A stretch of DNA of 64,000 nucleotides from contig CANKBS010000002.1 of assembly GCA_947480015.1 (NCBI GenBank), positions 62,001 to 126,000 on the forward strand. The letters run 5' to 3'. The notes beneath the pieces were generated by a model. That model was not told where the DNA came from. It ran no database searches and worked only from the letters and a program-made list of their open reading frames with translations. How positions within the stretch are numbered: the stretch's first letter is position 1; every line of letters starts with the position of its first letter. Made by a program: the position numbers and the translations under genes. Positions 23,974 through 54,725 of this stretch are shown here, one piece after another. The DNA comes from Sphingobacteriaceae bacterium. Lineage in GTDB: Bacteria > Bacteroidota > Bacteroidia > B-17B0 > Aurantibacillaceae.

Positions 23974-24178
23974 ATGTAATTATTTTTTTAAAGGTGCGCC
24001 CTTTTGAGCGCAATATTATGAAGTATTTTGATTGTTCCTGAGTAAGACTTACCTCTTAATGAGTAAACAATCTCTTTGAGTGTTTAAAGAATAAAGCCAA
24101 GCACTTAAAAAATCATATATTGATGTGTTATTACAAGGGCAGTATTTCATTTTAAGCATAAAAGTCAAAAAACAAAGC

Positions 24179-27100: not shown

Positions 27101-28456
27101 ATTTTACCGGTACGATTAGCCCATGCCGGCATATACAGTGTCACGGTGCAGGATATTCATGGTTGTACATCGGCCACTACCACAACCGTTAGTATCCTTA
27201 CCAATCCTAATTTAACTGCCGTGGGTGCTACCGTTTGTATAACAGCGCCGGCCATCTTAACCTCAAGTGGTTCGGTAACTTATACGTGGAACGGACCAGG
27301 GATCACAAACTTGCATCAGTCGAGTGTTTATATTCCAAGCGCTACATTTAGTAACACCTCTATTTATACGGTATTTGGTTCTGCGGCCAACGGTTGTACA
27401 GCGGCAGTGCAAGTCAGTTTGGTAACCACACCATTACCATTTCCGGCTGTTTCCAGTTCTAAAAATAAAGTCTGCCTTAACTCCGAAGTCAGTTTAACCG
27501 GATATGGTGGCTTATATTATTCTTGGTATCGACCGGATGGTACTTTTTTATTTTCCGGTAATCCACTTACGTTTACCGCTTCCACGTCAAGTTATGGTGG
27601 CACTTATACCTTAACAGTTGGCGATTTACGAGGCTGCAACGCCAGTACGCTTATAAGTTTGGACGTTATTAAGTTGCCGGTTGGCAGTTTGGTTGGCACT
27701 AAAATGCAAGCTTGCGTGCCATTCACTTCTGATTTTAACTATGCGTCGTCCCTACCCACCGCCACAGCTGTGAGTACCCGTTGGGAAATTGAAACAACGA
27801 GTATGAGTAAAAAATCATTTAGTTATCTTTTCACTAAACCAGGTACTTATCTTATAAAAGGATTTTTTACCGACACCATCAATGGTTGTAAAAACGTAAC
27901 TACTTTTACCGTAAACGCTTATCCCGTTCCGGTAGCCGACTTCAGCTTCAGTCCCGAAAAACCGATCGAGAGCATTGATGAAGTTAGTTTCATTAGTAAG
28001 TCAAGCGGAGAACAGTTAAAAAAGTTTAGTTGGTATTTTCAAGATTCAGAGCAAACCATTGGCAGTGGAAGTACTTATAACTATTTCTTTAAAGATGCCG
28101 GTTTATTTCCAATTGTATTAGTTGTAGAAAATAGTTGGACCTGCGCTGATACCATGATCAAAAGCATTTTAGTAGCTCCCGATTTTCACGTGTATGTTCC
28201 CAATGTATTCACCCCAAATGACGATAATAAAAACGACTTGTTCCTTCCGGTAGGACGTGGGTTAAAACAATATCACATCATGGTATTTAACCGCTGGGGC
28301 ACTTTATTATTTGAAAGCAGTGACATACAGCAAGGTTGGGACGGTAACTTTAATGGTAAAAGTTGTGAGAACGATGTGTATACTTGGAAAATCAATGCCT
28401 CCGGCATTGACGGAGAACCCAAGGAGTATACCGGTCATGTGAATTTATACCGTTAG
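24179..28456 (+). CDS. Giant Ig-like protein with gliding-motility-associated (T9SS type B) C-terminal domain
   Basis: Tandem Ig-like repeats (CQGSVLTLSAYSLPGSTYAWTGPYNY...), PKD-like domains, C-term VYVPNVFTPNDDNKNDLFLPVG...FNRWGTLLFESSDIQQGWDGNFNGKSCENDVYTWKI; likely ATG at 24179. Confidence 0.9.
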   Translation: MNLFKNKVLRFLLVLFTCLPYAYQACSPLNVPTVVTQSMVGSNFILSISNTSSWLNCPNVIDVEYACNGNAFSGLASQTFTSPPQSFVSSPYTYNSFTINVSSLCAGTAYKFRIRERNNNITTSSLWSSNYTFTTSGVFTQPTLSLTASPNLICPPQVVQLNATIINGCGFPPASYSWTPSAGLTNANIANPIASAAAATTFTCMVTGGPTGCWTASATIFLNVGLGPPVPGVAVATPSTICVYQGSTLTLSTFTGFVQWQSGPSTTGPWTNIPGANSPSYATPGLFGGSCYQALVTSCGGTTAISNQVCVTTHPIPVLTPTVGCTSSLTLLSFSVAGVSGPPSSVIWSPAPVTTGGGSTSATYSNSGSVFAIAFFPDGCISSTSFSVSAPSISITSGTFNCSSLSSATVTPYNMFGPFSYSWTPTAQTSSIATGLFPGNYTVSVHYNGGSCVNTATAGFVSVVPITGTIVNTGTLDCYGLNTGTASVLLTGGTGSQNFVWTDAFGSQTTATATGLAAGVNTLTVTDAITFCSFSQTFQINSPSATSLMITASSPSACAGKGLTLTATNSGGTPGAGYTYTWLPGPQTATEVVSQFFPGNYGYSVSSMDSRNCLSNALITVSFVPNPIITVASTSICPNAPGTLTASGASSYTWTGGANGNAFTASPAVYTIYGVVGSAQGCTSTANGYIGLLPIPVPVYNSNSPICNGQNIQLTALGGINYFWTGPLGFNANSQNAQVTGASPAYTGTYQVLVSAANNCTAAASFSVLVNPTPVLSVVGSTVCQGSVLTLSAYSLPGSTYAWTGPYNYATALQNPSFPSAFVSHTGNYQVMATSPQGCTNSAVANVTVTAMPNPIFTNNGPRCDGESLTLLGSGGASYVWYGPGGFMSAAQNPIINPVNMSADGIYTLVVTTGPCQAQIAHSITIYPLPNPIASNNGPLCETQTLQLNVNSGYANYTWVGPNAYLSFMPSPNPILPVRLAHAGIYSVTVQDIHGCTSATTTTVSILTNPNLTAVGATVCITAPAILTSSGSVTYTWNGPGITNLHQSSVYIPSATFSNTSIYTVFGSAANGCTAAVQVSLVTTPLPFPAVSSSKNKVCLNSEVSLTGYGGLYYSWYRPDGTFLFSGNPLTFTASTSSYGGTYTLTVGDLRGCNASTLISLDVIKLPVGSLVGTKMQACVPFTSDFNYASSLPTATAVSTRWEIETTSMSKKSFSYLFTKPGTYLIKGFFTDTINGCKNVTTFTVNAYPVPVADFSFSPEKPIESIDEVSFISKSSGEQLKKFSWYFQDSEQTIGSGSTYNYFFKDAGLFPIVLVVENSWTCADTMIKSILVAPDFHVYVPNVFTPNDDNKNDLFLPVGRGLKQYHIMVFNRWGTLLFESSDIQQGWDGNFNGKSCENDVYTWKINASGIDGEPKEYTGHVNLYR

Positions 28457-39056: not shown

Positions 39057-41099
39057 CTACTCTTTATCCGCCTCATTATCTATTTCTGCATCCACCACAC
39101 CAATGATTTTAAAATCGGTTCGTCGGTTTTTTGCTCTGCCTGCCGTATTGTCGGAACCATCGGGGTTTTCATTCGGTGCTATAGGCTTGCTCTCACCATA
39201 TCCACCAGCTTTTAAACGATCGGGCGTAATCCCTTTACTAATGAGGTATTCTACAACTGCCTCCGCACGTTTTTGCGATAATTTTAAATTATAAGAATCA
39301 CTGCCTTTACTATCCGTATGCGATTGAATTTCGATAATAAGTTCCGGATTCGCTTCCATCAGGCGAAGGACGGTGGTATCCAAACTTAACTTACTCGATT
39401 CCATCACTTTCGATTTATCAAACTCATAAAGCACATTTGGAATATGAATGGCCTCTTTTGGTTTTTTAAGCATGTGCAGGTCTTGTTTTAATTCCGTAGA
39501 ATTGCTGATTTCACGCGTGCTTAGCTCTTCACTGGTTCCCAGAAAATCCTCTTTTTTTACAACAATAAAATAATCCTGGCCGGCTTCAAGGCTTGTTTTA
39601 TAATTACCCAAACTATCGGTTAGTAAGGTTTTAACCAAATATTTACCCGGCGTTTTTTTATCGTAAATAAAAATTTCAACTGTGGCTTTAGAAATACTCA
39701 CATCCGGATCAAGCAAACTATTTACATTGCCACTCAATAAAATTCGGATGTATTCAGAATATTTGTAATAATAAATATCATCACAACAGGTATTGTTTTT
39801 TAATGTGTTTCCTCCTTTACGGTTACTTACTAAAAACCCTTCTTGGCGATTGGTTGAAATGGTATAATAAATATCGTCGGCACCGGTATTCAAAGGCTGG
39901 CCAATGTTTTCAGAAATCGCCCATTTTTTTCCATCGCCTTTACTTTGGTAAATATCATATCCACCTAATCCGCCCCAACCATTTGAACTAAAATATAAAC
40001 TGCGCGTTTCATTATCAAAATACGGGGTGATTTCGTTTTGTGAGGTATTTATTTTAGTTCCGGCATTACGCGGTACTTTGTACGTTTTGGTTTTTTTATC
40101 GTAAACGGTATACCAAATATCCAATCCGCCTTTACCCGATTTGTGATTACTTACATAAAAAAGAATATCATTTCCTTTTATGGGATCGCGGGTAACGGTT
40201 GGCATGGTGGAGCTGTACTTTGGATGATTCACCGGCTTGGGCAGTTTAAAGGGTTCCGACCAATTACCATTTTCATCTCGCTCAGTTACATAAATGGCAC
40301 AAATCATTTGCTCCATTAGATTTTGTTTACAACGGGTAAAATAAAGACGTTTGCGATCGGCCGTAAAACAAGCGTTACCGGTATTAAACGCTGCATCGTT
40401 AAGGTTTGTACCAAACTCTCCCTTAAACTGCCACGTTTCTCCGGTCCTCTCGGCGTAATATAATTTCTTCTTAATACCGCTGGCCGTATCATCTTCAATG
40501 ATGTATTCTCTTTTATCGGTTCGCAGTGAAGTAAACACCAAGGTATTATCATCCACATTCACCGGTCCACCTTCAGCATTTACTTTATTAATGGTGGAAT
40601 CGAGATGCATCACCACAATTTTCTTTTCATTGACCATCAGTTTTTGAACCGAATCACAAAACACAATTTCGCGACTTGCTTGGCGTTTTAAGAGTTTATC
40701 ACTGCCCTTATATTCTTTTTTAAATATTTGAAAATTAATTTTGGCACTATCGTACTGCATGTTTGACTTTTGCATGAGTGCATGAAAATACAAGGCTTCC
40801 GGAGCTTTAACGTGATTGCTGCGATAGGCTCTTAAAAACATCCGTTGCGCACGGTCGTAATCTCTAATTTCAAGGTAGGCTTTTGCAAGTTCTGACATGA
40901 TGTGTGCGTCAGCGGTATCGCGTTTTAAATAGGCTTCGAAAAAAATGATGGCCGAACTGGGGTCGTTTTGTTTTAAGGCCGATTTTCCCATGCGTTTCAG
41001 CGTTTTGCTTCTGGCATTTTTAACCAAAGCCGAATCGTTCTGCGCCACTATTCCACCTACCAGGAATACAAAAAAACATATCCATTTAATATCTCTCAC
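39057..41099 (-). CDS. OmpA-family protein with N-terminal TPR and PD40-like propeller
   Basis: TPR-like N-term, LYFSSNGWGGLGGYDIYQS, C-term EFDKSKVMESSKLSLDTTV...IEIQSHTDSKGSDSYNLKLSQKRAEAVVEYLISKGI. Confidence 0.93.
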   Translation of the reverse strand: MRDIKWICFFVFLVGGIVAQNDSALVKNARSKTLKRMGKSALKQNDPSSAIIFFEAYLKRDTADAHIMSELAKAYLEIRDYDRAQRMFLRAYRSNHVKAPEALYFHALMQKSNMQYDSAKINFQIFKKEYKGSDKLLKRQASREIVFCDSVQKLMVNEKKIVVMHLDSTINKVNAEGGPVNVDDNTLVFTSLRTDKREYIIEDDTASGIKKKLYYAERTGETWQFKGEFGTNLNDAAFNTGNACFTADRKRLYFTRCKQNLMEQMICAIYVTERDENGNWSEPFKLPKPVNHPKYSSTMPTVTRDPIKGNDILFYVSNHKSGKGGLDIWYTVYDKKTKTYKVPRNAGTKINTSQNEITPYFDNETRSLYFSSNGWGGLGGYDIYQSKGDGKKWAISENIGQPLNTGADDIYYTISTNRQEGFLVSNRKGGNTLKNNTCCDDIYYYKYSEYIRILLSGNVNSLLDPDVSISKATVEIFIYDKKTPGKYLVKTLLTDSLGNYKTSLEAGQDYFIVVKKEDFLGTSEELSTREISNSTELKQDLHMLKKPKEAIHIPNVLYEFDKSKVMESSKLSLDTTVLRLMEANPELIIEIQSHTDSKGSDSYNLKLSQKRAEAVVEYLISKGITPDRLKAGGYGESKPIAPNENPDGSDNTAGRAKNRRTDFKIIGVVDAEIDNEADKE

Positions 41100-42105
41100 A
41101 AGGCAAAACTTTTTTGGTTAAGCGGGTACTTTTAGCCCGGTAAATAAACGCTAATTCAAAAGCACCGCGACTGTTAACCGAGGTATGTAATTGCGAAAAG
41201 GTAACATCGTAACTAAAACCAATGGTATAATGTGAGTAATTCATCCCTGCGGTAATGATTCCGGCGTCAAAGTTAGTTTTAAATCCATCACGCCACATAA
41301 AACCTGCAAATACCGAATTGGTAAAAAACGCATCTTGTGCTAAAATGTACTCCACGTTTACACCACTCACCCAATCGTTAGCCCGGGTGGTAAACCCATA
41401 CAAACTGTGTGCTTTAAAAATTAGTTTGCTAGAATAGTAATAATTTACTGCCAAATTAAAGGCACTACGTGTAGGAAGTTTATTAGTGGCATTGTCTAAA
41501 AAACTTTCTTTGGGATGATTTAAATGAAACATGGCAAAACCCAATTCGGGTTCTATTTTCCCGAGTCTTCTTGAAGCAGCTACTCCCGCATTTAAATCTA
41601 AATAAGAAAAACGCTGCGACACATTGGTCTCGGTGTTTTGCAGACTGTTGTCAAAATAACCGGTATTCCAATTCAACTGATTTGGAAAGGAGTGTTTGTA
41701 AAAATCGATGGTTTTAATTACCATGCCCGGTTGAATACCGGCGTGTAATTTAAAGCCCGCAAATTTTAGATGAAAGGCAATGGAGGGCAGAATTTTTGTG
41801 ACCGATAAATTTTGGGCCGAACGATCGCTTAAAATAATTATACCCGGACTCACATTGATATTCTTCGGAAAAAAATTCATATCGCCCCCTGCCGAATAGG
41901 TATTGTAGCCCTTATCGAGACTGCGCCACTGACTGCGGTAATTTCCGAATAAGCGGTAATCGCCTTTGTAATTGCCGGTGTTGGCAGGGTTTAAGGATAA
42001 GGGTGAAAAATAATACTGACTAAAATGCAAATCCTGTGCCTTCGAAAAGAAGACACTGAAACTAATCAGAAGAAGTACATATGTTGCCCTGTGTAAAAAG
42101 TTCAC
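41086..42105 (-). CDS. PorP/SprF family type IX secretion membrane protein
   Basis: QDLHFSQYYFSPLSLNPANTGNYKGDYRLFGNYRSQW and NYSHYTIGFSYDVTFSQL; overlaps the OmpA gene by 14 bp. Confidence 0.95.
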   Translation of the reverse strand: MNFLHRATYVLLLISFSVFFSKAQDLHFSQYYFSPLSLNPANTGNYKGDYRLFGNYRSQWRSLDKGYNTYSAGGDMNFFPKNINVSPGIIILSDRSAQNLSVTKILPSIAFHLKFAGFKLHAGIQPGMVIKTIDFYKHSFPNQLNWNTGYFDNSLQNTETNVSQRFSYLDLNAGVAASRRLGKIEPELGFAMFHLNHPKESFLDNATNKLPTRSAFNLAVNYYYSSKLIFKAHSLYGFTTRANDWVSGVNVEYILAQDAFFTNSVFAGFMWRDGFKTNFDAGIITAGMNYSHYTIGFSYDVTFSQLHTSVNSRGAFELAFIYRAKSTRLTKKVLPCERY

Positions 42106-42106
42106 C

Positions 42107-45100
42107 TTATCGTATTAATTTAAAAGTTCCTGATTTAGATAAAACGGGCTGATCGGATAAAAACGTTTCAGCCGATACCTGATACACATATGTTTCCATG
42201 TTTTGTGGCACCCCATTAAACGCCCCATCCCAACCTAGTTTCAAGTCATTGCTATCAAATAACAATTGTCCCCAACGGTTATAAATTCTAAAATAAATGA
42301 GTTTTTTTAAGCCCCAACCTGCGGCATAAATAATATCGTTGGTGCCATCGCCATTGGGGGTGAATGCACTTGGCACATCCAGTGTTATTTTCGGATTGAT
42401 CAACACCGTATAAAAACTTTTTACGATTGAACATTTTAGTTCATCTTCCACCAATACCGTGTAAGTGACATTTACCGTGGTGCTTGATATCGGGTTAGGA
42501 ATATAACATTCGGTACAATTTAAATCAATAATGAGTGGCGACCAGGTGTAGGTAAAGCCGGGTTTTACATAAGCATTTAACGGAGCATGCTCCCCAATCA
42601 CGACCAAGGTATCCCAGTTTATACTTGGTGCCGGCGCCGCAATGTTCATAATATCGGTTGCCGGCTCACTCTCGCAACCGTTAGTGTCGCTTACTTTAAG
42701 TGAATAAGTGGTTGTTACCGAAGCCGAAGTTTGTGTGGTAAAATCATTGTTGGCCGTCATACTAATACTCGCACTTCCAAACAAAGGCATCAGGGTTCCG
42801 CTTACCGGTCCTGATACCCCCCCGCTGCCACTGCCACTAATTTCGAAACTGGCATTGGGACAAGACAGTGTTTGGGTAATAACTAAATTGGCTTTTGGTG
42901 AAGGAAAAACCGTTACTTGTTTGATTGCTGTGCCTATGCACGAATACTGTTCATCTTGGGTGGTAAAACTTACTGAGTATACGCCTGATGTTTTGTAAAC
43001 GTTGCTTGATATCGATCCCGTGGCGTTTGCCGAGCCATCACCAAAAACCCAAGTAAATTTATAATTAAGCTTCAAGGGATTGCCCGTGATATTGATAAAA
43101 GTATCGGTTATGCCCAAACAATGCGCGTATTTATCTCTGATTTGTTTAAAATCGGCATCCACCTTAATAACCTGCAAGGGCTGTGAGGCAATAAGTGTGC
43201 AGGCTCCACCCGGTGAGGTATATAACAAATTTAAGGTTGTGGCTCCGGTGCTGGTTATGGTTGGATAAATGGTATAAGGATAAATTTCAGTGGTTGGACT
43301 GCCAAGGGCATGGGCAGCCTGTGGCACATTATCGCCAAAAAACCATTTCCAACCACCCACATCGCTCAGTATATTAATACTTGCCGAAATACTTTCACCC
43401 AAACAAAACATGGTTGGTGTTACTGCCACCACAGCATTGGTGGTAAATACCGTAGGGTGTATCACTGCTTTACTTTCACAATGTGGACTGCCATCTACAA
43501 TCACAAAAACACTCAGCGAAATGCTTGAGACCCCGCGTGGAAGAAATGGTTTGATGTCGGTGGTGGTGGATGAAGGAATGGTAAGGGTGTTTAAAGGTGT
43601 GGCCACGCCCCATACAAAGGAGTTAATGGGGTCGATATTAAACGTAGAATTACTTTGAATGCTTACCGCATCTTCTCTACAAAACTGATTCACCCCATTG
43701 GGTGGGAAAAATAAGCCTGCCGTAGGTTGTCCAACTGCATGAATGGTGCGCGATTGTGTGGAGCGACATCCCGCATTATCAATAACCGTTAAGGTTGACA
43801 CATAAATACCCGGTGCGTAATAGGAATGCGAGGCGCCAGTAAAATTAGGACTTGTTGCCCAGCTTGGTGGTCCCGGTGGATCGCCATAACTCACGCTATA
43901 CGTGGCATAGCCGGTGTTGGCAGAAAAGCTGACGGTGTTAAATGAATTGGTTGCAATACACGGATAAGGATTGGTACTGTTAAAGTTCGGAAACGGATTA
44001 TTTACTTGCCAGGTTTTGGTGCTTACATCGCTACAACCCAAATTATTAACTGCCGACATGGTGGCTGTAAATACCGTAAAGGGCGGAAAGGCTACCGTGA
44101 GATTATGAACTTGTGATAAAAATGGCGGAGAAATAAGTTGTGAGGCCGAACCATCACCATAGGTTAAGGTATAATTTGTAATCACATCCGGGGCTACCTG
44201 TGTGGCCTCTGTGGTATTAATTAATTGAACCGTTCCCGCCGATAAACAAACCGGGTTAGGATTAAAATTAAAAACAGGTTTGGCTGAACTGATGCGGAAT
44301 AAAACCGTAGTATCATCAATACAATCATTTTCATCTCTAATCCTTAAGGTCATGGTATAAATACCGGCCGTAAGAAATTTATCGTGTGAGATAACATCCG
44401 TAGGAAATGCCGGCGTTGGCGCTGGTGGTGGTGCTGGAGCAGATCCATGAGTTGAAAAACCGGGATAGATATGATCAATGGGATAAAGGGTATAGGTTGG
44501 CGTGCTAAAAAACCAGGTGTAGCCTCTGCCACAGGTTAAAAAAGCTTCGCTTGAGGTGATACTACTAAAACTATAGGGTGTGCCTACACAAGCCAATGCA
44601 TTTGGCAAAGTTGGAATAGCTTGATTATTAAAAGTTATACGTGCTACCGGATTACGGATTTTTACAGTTTGACTAAAATTCGAATTCGGACAACCCGTCC
44701 CAGGATTAATACTTAGCATGTTTGCCGTATAATTTCCTGAATTGGCATACACATGGGTAATTACCGAACTTGTATTCGCATTAGCATTCCCACTAATGAT
44801 GCTAAAACTGGTTGGTCCGCTGCCATCCCCAAAATTAATAGTGGCACTGGTGGCCGATTGTAAATGCACATAAAACACAACCGAATTCCGATTCACATTA
44901 CAATTGGTTTCAAAACGAAAACGCCCCACGGGTCCCATTACGGTAATCGTTTGCGGTAAAACTTGGGAGGAGCTACATCCTGCCTGCACAGCAGATACTG
45001 TGACATTATGAACCCCCACATGCGTAAAAGCAAAAATAGGCACAGAGTCGGTTACACAGCCCGAAAAAAATCCGGCATCCGATTCAAAATGCCAATTACT

Positions 45101-46933
45101 AATGGTGGATGAGGAGGGCACCGCGGTGGTGGTGGCATGCATGGCCACACTAATGGGCTGTCCGGCACAGACGACAGAGGGATAAATGGCACTAACGGTT
45201 GGCGAATTGACGACAGTTATCACATCTTTATACGAAGTGTCGGCACAACCACCAACTGTTTGAATAATTAAATAAGGTTTGTAAGTACCGTTAGCGGTGT
45301 AGGTAAACACCTGATTAGGAATGACCGAACCAGTTGAAGGCGGCAAAGGCACCGGGCCTGATACAAAAACCGGTGGCGTGGCTCCATTACACCAGGTATA
45401 AGAAGTAATGGGATAAGTAAGACTAAAAAAAGAAGAGTCTGTATACGTCACCGTTAATGGTCTGCACCCTTCGTGCTTGTCGGTATAAAACCAAGCCGAG
45501 GGACGAGAAATGGTATCATAGATACTAACCAGGCTGCTGGTCCAGCATTGAGCCGGAGAATTAGACTGTGCGATGAGCGTGATGTTAGGCATAAAATAGG
45601 GATAAATCGTGTATGGATTTAAACTTCCCTGCGTAATGGTGAATGTTGCGGGGCCCATATTATTTATAATGGTAGTAGTTGGTATTGACGACTGCGAGCT
45701 ATTAGGCGGCCAACTCACCACCCAAGTAAAGGTAAGTGTACTTCCATTGTTCACAAAAGAAGTATTGCTGTATGTGATGGCCATAGAAGGACCGCAGGTA
45801 GAACCGGGAGGTGTGCAAGTGAAATTAGGCGATACACATTCTACAAAAACCTGCTTCACTAAATTAACAACCGGACAATTAGGCGATGATTGCACCGATA
45901 CGGTTATTGTATTGGGTCCGCATACACCAAACACACCCACATTCGGAATGATGGTTGAACTACCCGGTATAAGCGTGTAATTAGTTGCTGTGACACTCGT
46001 AGATAACAGAAAATTTACCGAAGCTTGTGATGTTTGAACGGTTGCCTGAATAAATGCATTTAAACAAACGGTTTGTGGTATCGTAGCCGTTAAACTTGGG
46101 TTAGCCACCGTTACCGGTATACTTTGAGTACTACTGCAATTATTATTATCGCTAACCGTTACATTAATGGTACTATTCCCATTTCCAAAACTTACTGCAC
46201 CCGGTGAAGCAGCGCTTGATCCAGCAGGACTGCCACCGGTAAAGATCCAGTTAAAAGTTAGTACGCCACCACTAATTGGTGATCCGCTAATGGAACTGGC
46301 TCCACTGATGTTTGTGACAAATGGTGGCATGCAACCATTGTAACCGTTACTGGAGCTCACAATGATAACAGGTGGCGTTGAAACGTGGATGACGGAATTT
46401 GACGGAGCACTTGCAACAGCAGTACAACCATTTGCGGAAGTTAAAATTAAAACCGGCACAAAATTATTGGCAGAAGTATAATTATGTGTGGTGCTTGCAC
46501 CCGAACCCAGTGCACCAAGATCTCCAAACACCCAAGTATAGGTTCCACCGGCACCAGCACCTGTGCCTGAAAAAGAAACCGGCATCGGTGCACAATGGTT
46601 GGTAGGTTGTACATAGGAATAACTTCCACTTGGAGGAGGCAAAACAGTAATTACAGTAGTGTAGCTCACCGGACTTCCACCTACTGTTGCGGTATAGGTA
46701 ATATTATAAGTGCCAGGACTAGTATATAAAACGCTCGGACTTTGCAGAAGAGATGTTCCCTGCCCTGCCCCTAAGGTCCAAAAAGAATTTACTGCGCCCG
46801 GTGGTCCGGATAGTATGACAGAAAACGGCGGACAGCCACTGCTGGATGGAGAAACGCTAATCTGAGAAAAAATGCTTAAGGTCTGTGTAAACAAAAACAG
46901 AACAAAGAAGAGAAATTGTTTTTGTTTGTACAT
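42107..46933 (-). CDS. Giant PKD-repeat adhesin-like protein 1 with T9SS type B C-terminal domain
   Basis: PKD motifs (YTWVFGDLG.., FTWVFGDGSANATG); C-term LDVPSAFTPNGDGTNDIIYAAGWGLKKLIYFRIYNRWGQLLFDSNDLKLGWDGAFNG; start MYKQKQFLF at 46933 conserved with the paralog. Confidence 0.92.
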   Translation of the reverse strand: MYKQKQFLFFVLFLFTQTLSIFSQISVSPSSSGCPPFSVILSGPPGAVNSFWTLGAGQGTSLLQSPSVLYTSPGTYNITYTATVGGSPVSYTTVITVLPPPSGSYSYVQPTNHCAPMPVSFSGTGAGAGGTYTWVFGDLGALGSGASTTHNYTSANNFVPVLILTSANGCTAVASAPSNSVIHVSTPPVIIVSSSNGYNGCMPPFVTNISGASSISGSPISGGVLTFNWIFTGGSPAGSSAASPGAVSFGNGNSTINVTVSDNNNCSSTQSIPVTVANPSLTATIPQTVCLNAFIQATVQTSQASVNFLLSTSVTATNYTLIPGSSTIIPNVGVFGVCGPNTITVSVQSSPNCPVVNLVKQVFVECVSPNFTCTPPGSTCGPSMAITYSNTSFVNNGSTLTFTWVVSWPPNSSQSSIPTTTIINNMGPATFTITQGSLNPYTIYPYFMPNITLIAQSNSPAQCWTSSLVSIYDTISRPSAWFYTDKHEGCRPLTVTYTDSSFFSLTYPITSYTWCNGATPPVFVSGPVPLPPSTGSVIPNQVFTYTANGTYKPYLIIQTVGGCADTSYKDVITVVNSPTVSAIYPSVVCAGQPISVAMHATTTAVPSSSTISNWHFESDAGFFSGCVTDSVPIFAFTHVGVHNVTVSAVQAGCSSSQVLPQTITVMGPVGRFRFETNCNVNRNSVVFYVHLQSATSATINFGDGSGPTSFSIISGNANANTSSVITHVYANSGNYTANMLSINPGTGCPNSNFSQTVKIRNPVARITFNNQAIPTLPNALACVGTPYSFSSITSSEAFLTCGRGYTWFFSTPTYTLYPIDHIYPGFSTHGSAPAPPPAPTPAFPTDVISHDKFLTAGIYTMTLRIRDENDCIDDTTVLFRISSAKPVFNFNPNPVCLSAGTVQLINTTEATQVAPDVITNYTLTYGDGSASQLISPPFLSQVHNLTVAFPPFTVFTATMSAVNNLGCSDVSTKTWQVNNPFPNFNSTNPYPCIATNSFNTVSFSANTGYATYSVSYGDPPGPPSWATSPNFTGASHSYYAPGIYVSTLTVIDNAGCRSTQSRTIHAVGQPTAGLFFPPNGVNQFCREDAVSIQSNSTFNIDPINSFVWGVATPLNTLTIPSSTTTDIKPFLPRGVSSISLSVFVIVDGSPHCESKAVIHPTVFTTNAVVAVTPTMFCLGESISASINILSDVGGWKWFFGDNVPQAAHALGSPTTEIYPYTIYPTITSTGATTLNLLYTSPGGACTLIASQPLQVIKVDADFKQIRDKYAHCLGITDTFINITGNPLKLNYKFTWVFGDGSANATGSISSNVYKTSGVYSVSFTTQDEQYSCIGTAIKQVTVFPSPKANLVITQTLSCPNASFEISGSGSGGVSGPVSGTLMPLFGSASISMTANNDFTTQTSASVTTTYSLKVSDTNGCESEPATDIMNIAAPAPSINWDTLVVIGEHAPLNAYVKPGFTYTWSPLIIDLNCTECYIPNPISSTTVNVTYTVLVEDELKCSIVKSFYTVLINPKITLDVPSAFTPNGDGTNDIIYAAGWGLKKLIYFRIYNRWGQLLFDSNDLKLGWDGAFNGVPQNMETYVYQVSAETFLSDQPVLSKSGTFKLIR

Positions 46934-46955
46934 GTTAATAAATATAATACATTTG
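46922..46955 (+). promoter_or_regulatory. Candidate promoter of M43-like gene 1 (TTTG-N19-TACATTTG)
   Basis: -7 TACATTTG at 46948-46955; -33 TTTG at 46925-46928 lies inside the first codons of the divergent adhesin gene. Confidence 0.6.
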
Positions 46956-46997
46956 GGTATAGTTAACCAAATATAAAAAAAATTCGAACCAAACCCA

Positions 46998-48020
46998 ATG
47001 ACAACTATAAAATATTTTATTCTGCTAGTTTTTTCACTCAGCACTTTTTTCATTAAAGCTCAAGGTTTACCTGAAAATAAGTCCATTAATTCATCACAAA
47101 ATCAAAGCGGTAAAAAATATTCAACAGGCCAGACACAAAATATGGTGCAAAGCTTAAAACGCGATACCTGCCTCAATAAAAAATTTTCCATAGTCTTTTA
47201 TTTGATTCAGGACAGTGCCTATTCGCTAACAACAAGTCCAACCAATTCAACCTATATCACCTATTCCCTAAGTGCCATCATGAGTACTTTAAATGCGGCC
47301 TTTGCGCCTATTTGTGTGTCTTTCGAACATTGTAAAACGGTAATCATTCCAAACTATGAATTTAATCGGTGGCGTGCCTATTCAAATGGGGCACACGTGA
47401 TTTCTAACTGGTTTACCGAAAACACCATTTGCATTTATATACCCAAAGAAATTTTGGATATTAGACCCGATGATCCTGAATATTCCTACGCCTATGGCCC
47501 TCCCACAAAAACACTTACATTAATGACTACTACTATAGCACCCGGCAATTCAATTGTGATTCAAAGAAATAAATCGATGGATAAAAACAGAATTGATGCA
47601 AGGGGTCCGAATATTTTACATGCCATGGGGCATTTTTTTGGTCTCGAACACACCTTTTTTGAGAAGGCCCCCAACAGCAATATGGCCTCTGCCATTCCTT
47701 TGCCACCAGCGAGTTCAAGTCCAACCATTGCAACTCACGAATTTGCCGAACGGAGTAATTTCCAAAATTGTTATGAGCATGGGGATGGCTTTTGTGACAC
47801 TGAGGCCGACCCTTATCCGTCCACCTCAACCATTAACCCCACTCAAGCTTTTATTGGCGGCTGTTCCGACAATAGCGGCTTAAAAGATGGTAAGGGAGAT
47901 TTTTATGTTCCTCCCATCGATAATATCATGTCGGTTTACGAATGTCGTTGCCGTTTTAGTCAAGAACAACTCAATTACATGGCTTACATGATTCAAACAC
48001 GTCGCCTATATCTTCATTAA
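46998..48020 (+). CDS. Exported M43/pappalysin-like protein 1, predicted catalytically inactive
   Basis: HAMGHFFGLEH (47619-47651), HGDGFCDTEADPYPS, PPIDNIMSVYECRCRFSQEQLNYM; signal peptide, no C-terminal T9SS domain. Confidence 0.85.
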   Translation: MTTIKYFILLVFSLSTFFIKAQGLPENKSINSSQNQSGKKYSTGQTQNMVQSLKRDTCLNKKFSIVFYLIQDSAYSLTTSPTNSTYITYSLSAIMSTLNAAFAPICVSFEHCKTVIIPNYEFNRWRAYSNGAHVISNWFTENTICIYIPKEILDIRPDDPEYSYAYGPPTKTLTLMTTTIAPGNSIVIQRNKSMDKNRIDARGPNILHAMGHFFGLEHTFFEKAPNSNMASAIPLPPASSSPTIATHEFAERSNFQNCYEHGDGFCDTEADPYPSTSTINPTQAFIGGCSDNSGLKDGKGDFYVPPIDNIMSVYECRCRFSQEQLNYMAYMIQTRRLYLH

Positions 48021-48072
48021 TGCCAAAGATTTTTTTTCGAGAGGCTTCAATTTTTATTATAAAAAACAGAAC

Positions 48073-51000
48073 TTAGCGTATTAATTTAAAAGTTCCTGAT
48101 TTAGATAAAACAGGCTGATCGGTTAAAAATGTTTCGGCCGATACCTGATACACATAAGTCTCCATGTTTTGTGGCACCCCGTTAAACACCCCATCCCAGC
48201 CTTGTTTCAAGTCATTGCTATCAAATAACAATTGTCCCCAACGGTTATAAATTCTAAAATAAATTAATTTCTTTAAGCCCCAACCTGCTGCATAAATAAC
48301 ATCGTTGGTGCCATCACCATTCGGGGTGAATGCAGTTGGCACATCCAGCGTTACTTTCGGATTGATCATCACTGTATAAAAACTTTTTACGATCGAACAT
48401 TTTAGTTCGTCTTCTACTAAAACAGTATACGTCACATTTATGGTAGTGCTCGAAATTGGATTAGGTATGTAACACGTGGTACAATTTAAATCAACAATGA
48501 GTGGCGACCAGGTGTAGGTAAAGCCTGGTTTTACATAAGCATTTAACGGCGCGTGTTCCCCAATCACCACCAGGGTGTCCCAGTTTACACTTGGTGCAGG
48601 CGCTACAATGTTCATGATGTCGGTTGCCGGCTCACTCTCACAACCGTTAGTGTCGCTTACCTTTAAGGTATACGTGGTAGTTACTGAAGATGAAGCCGCC
48701 GTTGTAAAATCATTGTTCGCTGACATACTAACCGCTGTTGTTCCGTTTAGTGCCGTCAATGTAGCGCTTACCGGCCCCGATACACCCGCTGTGCCACTGC
48801 CACTTATTTCAAAACTGGCATTTGGACAAGACAGTGTTTGGGTAATTACTAAATTGGCCTTTGGTGAAGGAAACACGGTTACTTCTTTAGTGGCCCTGCC
48901 AATGCAGGAATACTGTTCGTCTTGGGTAGTGAAACTTACCGTGTATACACCCGGTGCCTTATAGTGATTACTGGATAGGGATCCGGTTGCTGATATCGAG
49001 CCATCACCAAAGCTCCAGCTAAATTTATAAGTAAGATCTAATGGGTTTTTAGTGATGTTGATGAAGGTATCGGTTATACCCATACAATGCGCGTACTTAT
49101 CTCTAATCTGTTTAAAGTCCGCATCCACCTTAATGACTTGGATGGCTTGCGCAATAACCGTGGGGCACAATCCGGCGGCGGCCGAGTATAAAAGTTGCAC
49201 AACCGCTGATCCCGTTGTTGAAGAAGTGGGATAAATGGTATAGGGATATACCTGCGTGGTTGGACTACCCAGGGCATTCGCCGGCTGCGGCACATTATCA
49301 CCAAACATCCATTTCCAACCGGCAACATCGTTAATGATTTCAATACTCGCTTCCAGATTTTCACCTAAACACAAAATGGTTGGCGATAGGGCAATATTTG
49401 CACTCGGAGTAAAAACGGTTGTTTGAGCAACGGCTTTACTTCCGCAATAGTTAATGCCATTAAGGGTGACATACACATTTAATGAAACACTCGACACGCC
49501 TCGTGGTAAAAAGGGTTGCACAGCGGTAAGCGTGGAATTAAATGGGGTAAGTGTGGTGCTCGGCGTCGAATAACCCCAGGCGTAGGTAGTAATTGGATTT
49601 ACAAAAAAATTAGAGGTACTTGAAATCGTTCGTGTGTCTTCTGTACAAAAGAAATTATTACCACTTGGTGGAAAGAAAAGTCCTGCCGTTGGTTGGCCAA
49701 TGGCTGTAATACTGAGCACCTGTGTAGCCTTGCAACCAATGTTATCGAGCACAGTCATCGTTGCGGCGTAAACGCCGGGAACAGCATAGGTATGATTAGC
49801 ATTTGAAAAAGTAGAGGTGCTTAACCAAACGGGTGAACCAGGAGGTTCTCCGTAACTCACACTGTAGGTGGCGTAACCTGATGCTGCAGTAAAACCTATG
49901 GTATTAAAGGAGTTTTGAGGGATACATGGAAAGAGATTAGTGGTATTGAAATTAGGATAGGGTTTATTTACCTGCCAATTCACTCTACCGGTATCAATAC
50001 AACCTAACGAATTTTTAGCAATCAAATAAGCATTGAAAATAGAAAATGGCGGGAAGGCATTCACAATTGGATGGATGGTGCTGCTTAACACAGTTGGTGG
50101 ATTTATTAAAATAGGTGGCGACTGATCACCATAGGTTAAGGTGTAATGGGTTATCACATCGGGGAAAACCTGATAGGCCTGGGAATTATTTGTTAATTGT
50201 ACCGTGCCGGCATTAAAACAAACCGGGCTGGGTGTGATGGTGAACACCGGTTCTGCCGAGGAAATCCTGAACAAACGTGTCATAGCATCCTGACATCCAT
50301 TTTCATCTTTTACCATCAGAGTGATGGTATAAATACCGGCCACTCGAAATGTATCCAACATCACAGGATCAACAATGTAAGGACAGGTTGTGCATTGTAC
50401 AGCAGGCAGCGGAGGCGGCGGTGGAGGCAAAATAACAGGGAAAGGATCCGGAATACGCGGATAGGCAGTCATAATGGGAGGAAGCGAATGTACCGGACTT
50501 GCAAAAAACCACGTATATCCACTGCCACAAGCCACCAAATGATCGCTGGAAGTGCTGGCATCAAAATCAAAACGGGTTTTTGTGCAAGCGATGGCAGTAG
50601 GTAAACTCGGCAGCCCTAGTCCGTGATAGGTGATTCTTGCTTTTGGATCTCTGATTTTAAGCCCCTGTGAAAAGGTATAGGTTGGACATCCTGTATTACC
50701 TGCGCTGACTAATGTACCGGTGTAATTACCCGAACCCGGATAAATATGTGTGGTGATAAAATTTGTGTTCGCCGTCGGATTAGCAGGAATAATGACATAA
50801 CTGGCGGGTCCGTCTCCAAAAAAAAGTGTAGCGCTGCTTGCCGATTGTAAGTTCACACTAAAACTAACCGATGCTTTGTTCACATTACAATTGGTTTCAA
50901 AACGAAATTTTCCGGCCGGACCAAGCACCGTAATTGTTTGAGGGAGGACCTGACTTCCTTCACATCCTGCTTGCATGGCGGTTACCGTGACATTATGAAT

Positions 51001-52890
51001 GCCAACATGCGTAAATGGAAATACCGGATTTTTATTGGTGATGCAGCCCGAGAAAAAATGATCGTCGGTATCCACATGCCAGTGATTGATATAGGTTGAT
51101 GAAGGCACCGAAGATGTGGTGGATCCATTGACACTCATCATAACAGCTTGTCCGGCGCAAACAATGGAAGGGAAAGTGGCCGTTACATTTGGCGGAGTAA
51201 CCACCGTAATGGTATCTCGGTAAGAATAATCAATACAACCCCCTAACGTTTGTATGATGAGGTATGGCATATAAGTACCCGCTGTATATGTAAAAGAAAC
51301 GGTATTGGCACCCACCGAAAAAGTGGGTGGACTGGCACCATTGCACCAGGTATAATTGATAGCCGGAATCGGATAGAAGGGGTTATTTGTACTTGTATTT
51401 GTAAAGGTGACAACTAAAGGGGCGCATCCTTGTTTTTTATCGGTTTTATATTTGGCCGTAGGTCGCATCACCAAATAATTAGCATGTATCGATAGATCGG
51501 AGCATTGGGCTGTTGAATTGGAAGTGGCAATGAGTTGAATGCTTGGAATAAATCCGGTATAAACTGTAAATGGATTTGAACTCCCTTGCGACAAGGTAAA
51601 ATTAAAATTAGCGGGTGTCGTAATAACCGTACTTAATGGCACAGAATGAAACGTGGCATTATTCGGAAACCAATTTACCGACCAAGCGTAAGTCATCGTA
51701 TTGCCACTGTTGTTAGTGGTTGTATTAACTGCCGTTCCGGGTAAAATAGAATCGCAGGTATTATATGGTGGCACTAAACTAAAACTGCTGGTGACCTGTT
51801 CAACAAAAACAGTTTTGGTAACTTGCACCGCCGTACAGCCGGGTCCAGGCGCGACATAAGCGGTTACGGTATGAATACCGGGTGTATTGATCGGCGGTAA
51901 GGTATCTACCTGAATTGTATTTGGAGGGTGGATGTAACTGGTTGCTGTAGGTGCTGTAGGCAGAGTAAAGTATACCATGGCTTGTGAAGTATTCACAGTA
52001 GCCGTATAGCGCACATTGATGCAGATGGTTGGTTGTATACTGACCGACAAACTCGGACTCATCACCGTTACCAGAGCAGAGGCCGTATTACTACATTGAT
52101 TATTATCGGTAACCGTAACATTGATACTATTTTGACCCGCTCCAAAACTAATAGGACCGGTATTTACAGCGGAGGCTGATGAAGGTGAGCCGCCACTGAA
52201 GGTCCAGTTAAAGCTTAAGGTTCCACCGGCAATGGGTGAACCGCTTATGGTATTGGAACCACTTATGCTTGATACAAATGGCGGGTTACAGCCTGAAAAT
52301 CCTGCCGAGGAAGTAATTTGTATAACCGGTGGGGAAGAAACACTGATAATGCTTGGGCTTGGAGGTGATGCCACAGCCGTGCAACCATTGGCGGCAGTTA
52401 AAATGAGTGAAGGCAAAAAATTATTTGCACTGGTATAGGTATGGCTAACACTAGCCGTTGCGCCAAAAGGACTCAGATCACCAAACACCCACTTATACGT
52501 TCCGCCTGCACCTGCCCCTGTTCCATTAAATGAAACCGGCATAGGGGCACAATGGGTACTTGGCTGCGAAAAGGTAAAATTACCCGAAGGCGGCTGCAAT
52601 ACCGTAACAGCAGTACTGTAGCTCACAGGATTTCCACCAACCAAAGCGGTAAAAGTAACCACATACACTCCGGTTGCCGTATAAATAACACTGGCTGCGG
52701 GTAAATTGGACGTGCCTTGTGTTGGACCAAGATTCCAGAATGGATTAACGGCCCCGGCGGGCCCTGTAAAAACAACCGAAAACGGTGGGCAGCCTTGATT
52801 GCTAGGAGAAACAGTAATTTGAGAAAACCCTCTATTTAAAAGTCCAAACAAAAGTATCAGAAGGAACAAAAATTGTTTTTGTTTGTACAT
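48073..52890 (-). CDS. Giant PKD-repeat adhesin-like protein 2 with T9SS type B C-terminal domain (paralog of 42107-46933)
   Basis: Same domain layout; near-identical C-terminus (LDVPTAFTPNGDGTNDVIYAAGWGLKKLIYFRIYNRWGQLLFDSNDLKQGWDG). Confidence 0.92.
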   Translation of the reverse strand: MYKQKQFLFLLILLFGLLNRGFSQITVSPSNQGCPPFSVVFTGPAGAVNPFWNLGPTQGTSNLPAASVIYTATGVYVVTFTALVGGNPVSYSTAVTVLQPPSGNFTFSQPSTHCAPMPVSFNGTGAGAGGTYKWVFGDLSPFGATASVSHTYTSANNFLPSLILTAANGCTAVASPPSPSIISVSSPPVIQITSSAGFSGCNPPFVSSISGSNTISGSPIAGGTLSFNWTFSGGSPSSASAVNTGPISFGAGQNSINVTVTDNNQCSNTASALVTVMSPSLSVSIQPTICINVRYTATVNTSQAMVYFTLPTAPTATSYIHPPNTIQVDTLPPINTPGIHTVTAYVAPGPGCTAVQVTKTVFVEQVTSSFSLVPPYNTCDSILPGTAVNTTTNNSGNTMTYAWSVNWFPNNATFHSVPLSTVITTPANFNFTLSQGSSNPFTVYTGFIPSIQLIATSNSTAQCSDLSIHANYLVMRPTAKYKTDKKQGCAPLVVTFTNTSTNNPFYPIPAINYTWCNGASPPTFSVGANTVSFTYTAGTYMPYLIIQTLGGCIDYSYRDTITVVTPPNVTATFPSIVCAGQAVMMSVNGSTTSSVPSSTYINHWHVDTDDHFFSGCITNKNPVFPFTHVGIHNVTVTAMQAGCEGSQVLPQTITVLGPAGKFRFETNCNVNKASVSFSVNLQSASSATLFFGDGPASYVIIPANPTANTNFITTHIYPGSGNYTGTLVSAGNTGCPTYTFSQGLKIRDPKARITYHGLGLPSLPTAIACTKTRFDFDASTSSDHLVACGSGYTWFFASPVHSLPPIMTAYPRIPDPFPVILPPPPPPLPAVQCTTCPYIVDPVMLDTFRVAGIYTITLMVKDENGCQDAMTRLFRISSAEPVFTITPSPVCFNAGTVQLTNNSQAYQVFPDVITHYTLTYGDQSPPILINPPTVLSSTIHPIVNAFPPFSIFNAYLIAKNSLGCIDTGRVNWQVNKPYPNFNTTNLFPCIPQNSFNTIGFTAASGYATYSVSYGEPPGSPVWLSTSTFSNANHTYAVPGVYAATMTVLDNIGCKATQVLSITAIGQPTAGLFFPPSGNNFFCTEDTRTISSTSNFFVNPITTYAWGYSTPSTTLTPFNSTLTAVQPFLPRGVSSVSLNVYVTLNGINYCGSKAVAQTTVFTPSANIALSPTILCLGENLEASIEIINDVAGWKWMFGDNVPQPANALGSPTTQVYPYTIYPTSSTTGSAVVQLLYSAAAGLCPTVIAQAIQVIKVDADFKQIRDKYAHCMGITDTFINITKNPLDLTYKFSWSFGDGSISATGSLSSNHYKAPGVYTVSFTTQDEQYSCIGRATKEVTVFPSPKANLVITQTLSCPNASFEISGSGTAGVSGPVSATLTALNGTTAVSMSANNDFTTAASSSVTTTYTLKVSDTNGCESEPATDIMNIVAPAPSVNWDTLVVIGEHAPLNAYVKPGFTYTWSPLIVDLNCTTCYIPNPISSTTINVTYTVLVEDELKCSIVKSFYTVMINPKVTLDVPTAFTPNGDGTNDVIYAAGWGLKKLIYFRIYNRWGQLLFDSNDLKQGWDGVFNGVPQNMETYVYQVSAETFLTDQPVLSKSGTFKLIR

Positions 52891-52912
52891 ACTTAGAAAT
52901 CATTTAAATTTG
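52882..52912 (+). promoter_or_regulatory. Candidate promoter of M43-like gene 2 (TTTG-N19-TAAATTTG)
   Basis: -7 TAAATTTG at 52905-52912 and -33 TTTG at 52882-52885; same layout and spacing as copy 1. Confidence 0.6.
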
Positions 52913-52956
52913 GGTATTACATTACTAAAATTAAAAATAAATTTTGACTCAACCCA

Positions 52957-53940
52957 ATGAATGTAAAAAAATATTTTGTCGCCTTCCTGTTTTTTATCTG
53001 TAGTAATTTTGTGCATTCACAAAATTCACCGGCTTATAATTCTGCTACAACCACCAAAACCCAAAGTACTAGCAAATACAATCCGGCGCAGGTTCAAAAT
53101 TTAGTGACGAATTTATTGCGCGATACCTGTTTAAACAAAAAGTTTTCGATTGTTTTTTACCTCATTCAAGACAGTATCAACTCCTTACCGGCGAACCTCG
53201 CAAACATGAATTCTTATTCACTTACCTTGATGATAAACAGACTCAACACAGTGTTCAGCAGGATTTGCGTGTCCTTCGAAAATTGCAAAACAGTGATCAT
53301 CCCTAATTATTCTTATAATTTTTGGGATGCGTCCGATAACGGCATGGATGTGTTGCAAAATTGGTTCGAACCGAATACTATCAATGTTTATTTCCCTGAA
53401 CGCTTAATTGGTTTTATACCTGACCCCATTGATGAAGGCTATGCCTTTGCGCCACCCAACAGCAACCCACCTATCAGTTTAACCAGTGGCACCATCAACA
53501 GCGGAAACGCCATTGTGATGGCAAAAGCTCCGAGCCTTGGAGCATTAATGCATGCTTTCGGACATTTTTTTGGTTTGCAACATACCTTTTATGAAATAAA
53601 TCCGACAGCCATACCAAGCCCCCCGCCTCCTGCCAATGCTACACCCAGTATTTCAAGTTTTGAGTATGTTGACCGGATTAATTTAACGAATTGTTATACG
53701 CACGGAGACGGATTTTGTGATACAGAAGCCGATCCCTATCCGTCAATGTTAACAACAGGAATACCAACAAGCACCATAGGCTGCACCAAAACAGGTTTAA
53801 AAGACGGTAAAGGCAACTATTATATTCCGCCGGTTAGTAATTTTATGTCCATGTATCGTGAATGTCGCTGCTATTATAGTCAGCAGCAGTATAATTACAT
53901 GGCTTATGTGATCTGGCAAAGGCGATTATACCTGCATTAA
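52957..53940 (+). CDS. Exported M43/pappalysin-like protein 2, predicted catalytically inactive (paralog)
   Basis: HAFGHFFGLQH (53551-53583), HGDGFCDTEADPYPS, PPVSNFMSMYRECRCYYSQQQYNYM. Confidence 0.85.
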   Translation: MNVKKYFVAFLFFICSNFVHSQNSPAYNSATTTKTQSTSKYNPAQVQNLVTNLLRDTCLNKKFSIVFYLIQDSINSLPANLANMNSYSLTLMINRLNTVFSRICVSFENCKTVIIPNYSYNFWDASDNGMDVLQNWFEPNTINVYFPERLIGFIPDPIDEGYAFAPPNSNPPISLTSGTINSGNAIVMAKAPSLGALMHAFGHFFGLQHTFYEINPTAIPSPPPPANATPSISSFEYVDRINLTNCYTHGDGFCDTEADPYPSMLTTGIPTSTIGCTKTGLKDGKGNYYIPPVSNFMSMYRECRCYYSQQQYNYMAYVIWQRRLYLH

Positions 53941-54074: not shown

Positions 54075-54725
54075 ATGTCACACCTTATAGCCCCTTCCAT
54101 TTTATCCGCCAATTTTGCCAATTTGCAAGCCGACATTGAACTCATCAATAACAGCGAGGCCGATTGGTTTCATGTGGATGTGATGGATGGTGTTTTTGTT
54201 CCGAATATTTCGTTTGGATTCCCGGTTATTAAAGCCATCAGCAAGTTTGCGAAAAAACCATTGGATGTACATTTAATGATTGTTGAGCCGGATCGTTACG
54301 CGCAAGCTTTTAAGGATGCAGGTGCCGGCAGTTTAAGTGTACATATCGAAGCTTGTCCGCATTTACACCGTAGTATTCAAAACATTAAAAACCTTGGCAT
54401 GAAAGCCGGTGTGGCCATTAATCCGCATACGCCGGTGCACATGCTGGAGGATATTATTGCCGATCTTGATTTGGTTTGTATGATGAGTGTGAATCCTGGC
54501 TTTGGTGGACAAAAATTTATTCAGAACACCTTTGAAAAAGTGAGACAATTACATGCTTTGATTTTACGTCAGGGTTCCAAAGCCTTGATCGAAATTGACG
54601 GTGGTGTTGACCTAAACAATTATCAGGAACTTCTTCATTGTGGCGCAAATGTACTGGTAGCGGGCAATACCGTATTTGGCTCGCCTAATCCAAGCGAAAC
54701 CATCAGCCTCCTAAAAAAAGGTTAA
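54075..54725 (+). CDS. rpe: Ribulose-phosphate 3-epimerase
   Basis: IAPSILSANFANL, DWFHVDVMDGVFVPNISFG, LDVHLMI, MMSVNPGFGGQKFI, EIDGGV. Confidence 0.97.
   Translation: MSHLIAPSILSANFANLQADIELINNSEADWFHVDVMDGVFVPNISFGFPVIKAISKFAKKPLDVHLMIVEPDRYAQAFKDAGAGSLSVHIEACPHLHRSIQNIKNLGMKAGVAINPHTPVHMLEDIIADLDLVCMMSVNPGFGGQKFIQNTFEKVRQLHALILRQGSKALIEIDGGVDLNNYQELLHCGANVLVAGNTVFGSPNPSETISLLKKG

Follow-up and report, generated by a model that had tools for sequence, protein, structure and literature searches.

Organization of the locus

What does a protein resembling an M43 metallopeptidase do beside a surface adhesin of the T9SS? This question is raised by the window, the whole 64-kb stretch of DNA analyzed here, in which two tandem pairs, each consisting of a type-B adhesin gene on the minus strand and a divergent M43-like gene on the plus strand, adjoin a single PorP/SprF gene and a single PorE-like OmpA gene (Table 1). 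The initial annotation had described a tandem, back-to-back duplication of the divergent pair, with the proximal copy continuing into PorP/SprF and an OmpA-TPR-PD40 gene. Both elements of this description were confirmed: the ORFs were found at the positions and on the strands given, and the PorP/SprF and OmpA genes overlap by 14 bp (41086-41099). The adhesins had also been termed giant, a description that was not retained, as they comprise only 1,605 to 1,608 aa compared with about 6,500 aa for SprB.

Table 1. Features of the adhesin/M43-like locus (positions within the window)
Feature	Position	Strand	Characteristics
PorE-like protein (TPR - PD40 propeller - OmpA peptidoglycan-binding)	39057..41099	-	Pfam OmpA, PD40, TPR
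PorP/SprF-family outer-membrane shuttle/carrier	41086..42105	-	PF11751, TIGR03519; C-tail ...KKVLPCERY
Adhesin copy 1, 1,608 aa	42107..46933 (listed ORF 42107-47053)	-	TIGR04131/CHU_C, PKD_4
Divergent intergenic region 1, 64 bp	46934..46997
M43-like copy 1, 340 aa	46998..48020	+	Sec signal, predicted pappalysin fold, HAMGHFFGLEH
Adhesin copy 2, 1,605 aa	48073..52890	-	TIGR04131
Divergent intergenic region 2, 66 bp	52891..52956
M43-like copy 2, 327 aa	52957..53940	+	HAFGHFFGLQH
rpe (ribulose-phosphate 3-epimerase)	54075..54725	+	Syntenic flank in many relatives; outside the system

Translation of adhesin 1 almost certainly begins at the ATG at 46933 and not at 47053, since this start yields the N terminus MYKQKQ, matching copy 2 and the relatives. 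With this start, the divergent genes of pair 1 are separated by 64 bp and do not overlap.

The unit duplicated in tandem is the adhesin together with the M43-like gene, while PorP and OmpA remain single. The two adhesins are 61% identical and the two M43-like proteins 49% identical, and the window copies are sisters in the adhesin tree as well as in the M43-like tree; they are true duplicates. A shared ancestry of this duplication with the arrays found elsewhere was rejected, given this sister placement and the fact that the two copies of genome G004 sit in separate clades. Third-codon-position identity between the window adhesins is approximately 40% along the greater part of their length; only within the final ~300 codons (42107-43100 versus 48073-49070) does it rise to 78%, an increase that was not seen in three other tandem arrays. 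This pattern suggests that the CTD ends were homogenized by gene conversion in the window lineage, which is the likely explanation.

Several irregular copies were observed in other genomes. A decaying extra pair, with an 84-aa M43 remnant and a split adhesin, is present in genome G032 (L083, 8519-13556), and genomes G023 (L078) and G036 (L082) carry extra M43-like genes with an internal stop. An IS200-like Y1 transposase (PF01797) lies between the PorP and OmpA genes in three relatives (L003, 3749-4285; L004, 3739-4206; L009, 3758-4228).

The adhesins and their outer membrane partners

Both adhesins carry a type-B CTD (TIGR04131, 51.1 and 52.5 bits against a cut-off of 35), together with PKD repeats, and each forms an Ig/PKD-like string. 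The AF2 model of residues 500-1608 of adhesin 1 was all-beta, with no hidden non-Ig domain in these C-terminal 1,109 residues, and a PDB sequence search with adhesin 1 returned no match. Two more large T9SS substrates are encoded in the window at 24125-28456 and 5964-10148, one with a CHU_C type-B tail and one with a Por_Secre_tail type-A tail.

The PorP/SprF protein scored over the cut-off with both PF11751 (115.8 bits) and TIGR03519 (142.9 bits). The OmpA/PD40/TPR protein has its TPR, propeller, and OmpA domains in the order of PorE and reached 301 bits with the NCBIfam T9SS_PorE model against a cut-off of 600. We regard it as a PorE-like protein and a predicted cell wall tether, not as PorE itself. 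Inspection by eye revealed no lipoprotein signal: the residues that follow the signal region (...GGIVAQ, then NDS) do not start with a Cys.

Similar three-part sets have been described. In two accounts (PMC12618676 and PMC9143113), sets of a type-B substrate, a shuttle, and PorE in Flavobacterium johnsoniae and Porphyromonas gingivalis are static wall-anchored complexes, or are proposed to be, and docking of the CTD on PorP and anchoring by PorE are known from other bacteria. The F. johnsoniae operons (e.g., Fjoh_3952-3951-3950) resemble the window in joining a type-B CTD protein, an SprF-like shuttle, and a PorE homologue, and the PG1035-PorP-PorE complex of P. gingivalis has the same three parts, its PorE bearing TPR, propeller, and OmpA domains. 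Unlike the sets so described, the window adds a divergent M43-like gene and duplicates the adhesin/M43-like pair on one PorP/PorE-like pair. No mention of a partner of the M43-like type was found in the excerpts of these accounts of the F. johnsoniae and P. gingivalis complexes (PMC12618676 and PMC9143113), or of an M43-like fourth member in the open-access literature (subscription papers and preprints being outside the scope of the search). The adhesin/PorP/PorE set itself has already been published.

The SprB-SprF gliding system is also alike in placing a type-B adhesin on a PorP/SprF carrier with a C-tail Cys, which in SprF forms a CxC motif; this tail cysteine bonds to GldK (PMC12635249). 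It differs in that the window adhesin is about four times shorter, that the window carrier has a single conserved C-tail Cys with no CxC, and that a PorE-like gene is present in the window operon, none lying beside sprB (PMC12618676). Following the pattern of that source, the PorE-like gene in the operon predicts that the window adhesin would be static and wall-anchored; yet the PorP tail has a conserved Cys, such as SprF uses to bond to GldK, so that the adhesin may instead be mobile. The C-tail Cys was present in 35 of 36 module copies of PorP, with only an irregular ORF in L072 lacking it, and the organism's own GldK has two Cys besides the lipobox. The view that this Cys is unique to the module PorP was dropped because this genome encodes 13 further PorP/SprF proteins, and five of them (L097, L099, L102, L103, and L106) likewise end near a Cys, mostly as Cys-Pro. 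The L097 PorP adjoins a gldJ/gldK-like gene.

The M43-like partner has a predicted pappalysin fold

The M43-like proteins are single-domain proteins with a Sec-type N terminus, as judged by eye, and a profile search of both found no T9SS CTD of type A or type B. The window copies scored 18.2 and 18.8 bits with PF05572, under the gathering cut-off of 23, and 42 of 54 relatives matched this family at an E value of ≤0.001. Kinship emerged from the fold search, a PDB sequence search having returned no match. The AF2 model of M43-like copy 1, built with 54 relatives, had a pLDDT of 79.2 and a pTM of 0.77, and its best Foldseek matches in the PDB were PAPP-A (7ufg/8d8o), ulilysin (2cki/3lum), and mirolysin (6r7w). 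This model indicates that the partner has the pappalysin (M43) fold.

Like these pappalysins, the partner retains the HxxxHxxGxxH zinc frame and the Met-turn. Zinc ligands H208, H212, and H218 and the Met-turn M311 are kept in both window copies, and metal binding is predicted. Unlike them, it is single-domain, lacks a T9SS tail, and in the window carries Ala at the position of the catalytic Glu (HAxGHFFGL(E/Q)H). The fold matches included the promirolysin E225A structure (PDB 6r7v), in which the same Glu-to-Ala change was made by design.

The M43-like gene is paired exclusively with one adhesin family

A gene neighborhood and co-occurrence check had been set beforehand as the test of the pairing. 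Among 89 genomes of the same order, the adhesin and M43-like families occurred in the same 39, no genome had the M43-like family only, one had the adhesin only, and 49 had neither. Neither of the outcomes named beforehand as refuting the pairing was seen, these being a lack of co-occurrence and a location of the M43-like genes mostly apart from the adhesins. The lone adhesin-only genome (G066) has a locus interrupted by a contig end. The Fisher p value of 1.5e-24 for this co-occurrence overstates the independent evidence because the genomes are related. All 46 assessable M43-like copies in the order are divergent neighbors of this adhesin family; the order held 50 copies or fragments, and for the 4 left out only 6 to 45 bp separate the copy from the start of its contig. 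When GTDB genomes were scanned, 11 related loci were recovered, with the divergent pair present wherever the adhesin-side context was readable. The 39-genome co-occurrence and the 46 of 46 divergent neighbors led us to reject chance adjacency of the two genes.

The same divergent pair was found in five further families of Bacteroidia (f10, f12, f23, f32, and f38), where the placement of PorP/OmpA varies: downstream of the M43-like gene, in convergent orientation to it, or on the far side of the adhesin. These rearranged gene orders are a stronger argument for the pairing than the Fisher p value. Collectively, the four-gene module of adhesin, M43-like protein, PorP, and PorE-like protein is well supported, in agreement with the four-component surface system suggested in the initial annotation from the conserved pairing.

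The M43-like protein had also been called an accessory factor, and the wider adhesin family bears this out. A search of 198 genomes of the class recovered full-length adhesin relatives with PorP and OmpA and no M43-like gene (f13, f25, f34, f63, and f65), and these loci form a separate clade: a single branch of the adhesin tree (SH-aLRT 100) splits presence of the M43-like gene from its absence. The three-gene set is therefore the wider one, the M43-like gene being characteristic of one side of this branch, on which no loss of it was seen; in the single ambiguous case, genome G119, two contigs (C16 and C220) that end at fitting places jointly carry all four genes. Since related adhesins do without it, the partner is best read as an accessory and not as a general requirement for export. 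It was likewise absent beside the many other type-B proteins and PorPs of this genome.

M43 hits lying away from these adhesins (L087-L089, L113-L119, L121, and L145-L147) were rejected as module partners; they are lower scoring and mostly longer, and the ones inspected had an end resembling a T9SS tail or a start resembling a lipobox. Across a phylum-wide sample, M43 proteins elsewhere were only longer or lipoprotein-like, and at the three loci whose surroundings were read the neighboring genes included no adhesin of this family. In family f28 (L113, 8726-10036; L114; L115), a different M43 peptidase is divergent from rpe, the flank gene in the genus of the window, and has a T9SS type-A tail in L113, the one scanned.

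Divergent promoter regions

A consensus -7 element, TAnnTTTG, has been described for flavobacteria (PMC9723704). The region of pair 1 contains two predicted -7 boxes that lie face-to-face about 12 bp apart, TACATTTG on the plus strand at 46948-46955 and TATATTTG on the minus strand at 46975-46968. The region of pair 2 contains a predicted -7 box, TAAATTTG, directed toward M43-like copy 2 at about 52905-52912. The face-to-face layout is common to most loci of the genus.

Such boxes within 64 bp would make separation of the two genes costly, and the pair might accordingly be mere neighbors held together by an overlapping divergent promoter, with the M43-like protein serving an unrelated periplasmic role. 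We consider this very improbable. The pair persists in other families in which the intergenic region spans about 100 to 230 bp and the promoter boxes, where seen, lie apart; the tandem copies duplicated as a unit; and the other type-B proteins and PorPs of the genome have no such partner.

The catalytic Glu has been lost repeatedly under purifying selection

The catalytic Glu is present in 35 and replaced in 28 of the 63 M43-like sequences. The label pseudo-M43 given earlier thus fits the window copies, which read HAxxH, and does not extend to the partner as a whole, as many relatives retain HExxH. The M43-like tree requires at least 6 changes of the Glu, all forced by supported branches. Three independent changes fall in f12, a single one in f32, and a further two in the genus of the window, where the Glu was either lost twice or lost once and regained once.

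Comparison of close pairs gave a dN/dS of 0.07 to 0.11 for dead copies versus 0.05 to 0.08 for intact copies, indicating that the dead copies are under strong purifying selection (dN/dS of about 0.1). Among the 24 dead members of the genus, former Glu position 209 is variable, with many residues represented, and H208, G211, F214-L216, T219, M311, and the C-terminal YLH show little or no variation. This conservation and the low dN/dS argue that the dead proteins are retained for something besides cutting. Proteolysis may have been the original role, since many relatives retain HExxH.

It is conceivable that the M43-like protein is an adhesin-maturing protease that cuts the adhesin in most lineages, by removing a propeptide or clearing stalled adhesin, and that the dead copies in the genus of the window arose later, are partly redundant, and only cap or bind the old cleavage site. 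The protein shares its fold with active pappalysins, and the retained Glu looks like the deeper state. However, a protease that only cuts should decay once dead, and here the Glu was lost at least 5 to 6 times with the gene kept and selection not relaxed; further, no cleavage site was identified. On balance, this explanation is unlikely.

Divergence of the partner follows the adhesin body

Distances among M43-like proteins track those of the adhesin body beyond what PorP/OmpA account for (partial r of 0.53, permutation p of 0.0005; 0.57 within the genus). Across all loci, CTD distances track PorP (0.48), although not within the genus alone. These correlations fit a division of labor in which the CTD would engage PorP and the body the M43-like protein; they are weak, supporting evidence, as linked genes share history.

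The tracking of the adhesin body, the presence of one M43-like partner per adhesin, and the preserved pappalysin cleft would also suit a subunit that is exported together with the adhesin and stays attached to it, as a surface-exposed binding module. Such co-display appears quite unlikely, because the M43-like protein itself lacks a CTD of either type, A or B, whereas many M43 hits away from adhesins bear a T9SS tail or further domains. To our knowledge, there is no T9SS route for ride-along export.

Proposed model

We therefore return to a reading of the M43-like protein as a periplasmic factor dedicated to the adhesin, whose body it would bind or escort, within the four-gene T9SS surface-adhesin module; we judge this reading to have an even chance of being correct. 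The adhesin would enter the periplasm by Sec and then be exported by the T9SS. By analogy with known systems, it would stay cell-bound, with its type-B CTD held on the PorP/SprF shuttle and PorP tied to peptidoglycan by the PorE-like OmpA protein. The M43-like protein, predicted to be transcribed from the same short divergent promoter region as the adhesin, would be Sec-exported and, being without a CTD, probably remains in the periplasm. There we infer that it most likely binds the adhesin body without cutting, probably through the retained pappalysin cleft, and holds or escorts it before or during T9SS export. Both window adhesins would share one PorP and one PorE-like protein, each keeping its own M43-like partner.

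In evolutionary terms, presence of the M43-like gene represents one change on the adhesin tree. We tentatively propose, with somewhat less than even confidence, that a metzincin fold was recruited once beside a type-B adhesin, lost catalysis at least 5 to 6 times, and kept binding, giving a dedicated periplasmic pseudo-protease that escorts this adhesin in the T9SS. The repeated loss of catalysis among extant lineages amounts to a natural experiment in which binding and cutting are uncoupled, and a comparison of HExxH with HAxxH members would put the proposal to a direct test. Pairing of type-B T9SS substrates with PorP-like shuttles, and in some cases with PorE-like tethers, is established. 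A substrate-specific periplasmic partner, if true, would add an extra step to the type-B T9SS pathway and could account for the lasting export competence of long Ig-string adhesins.
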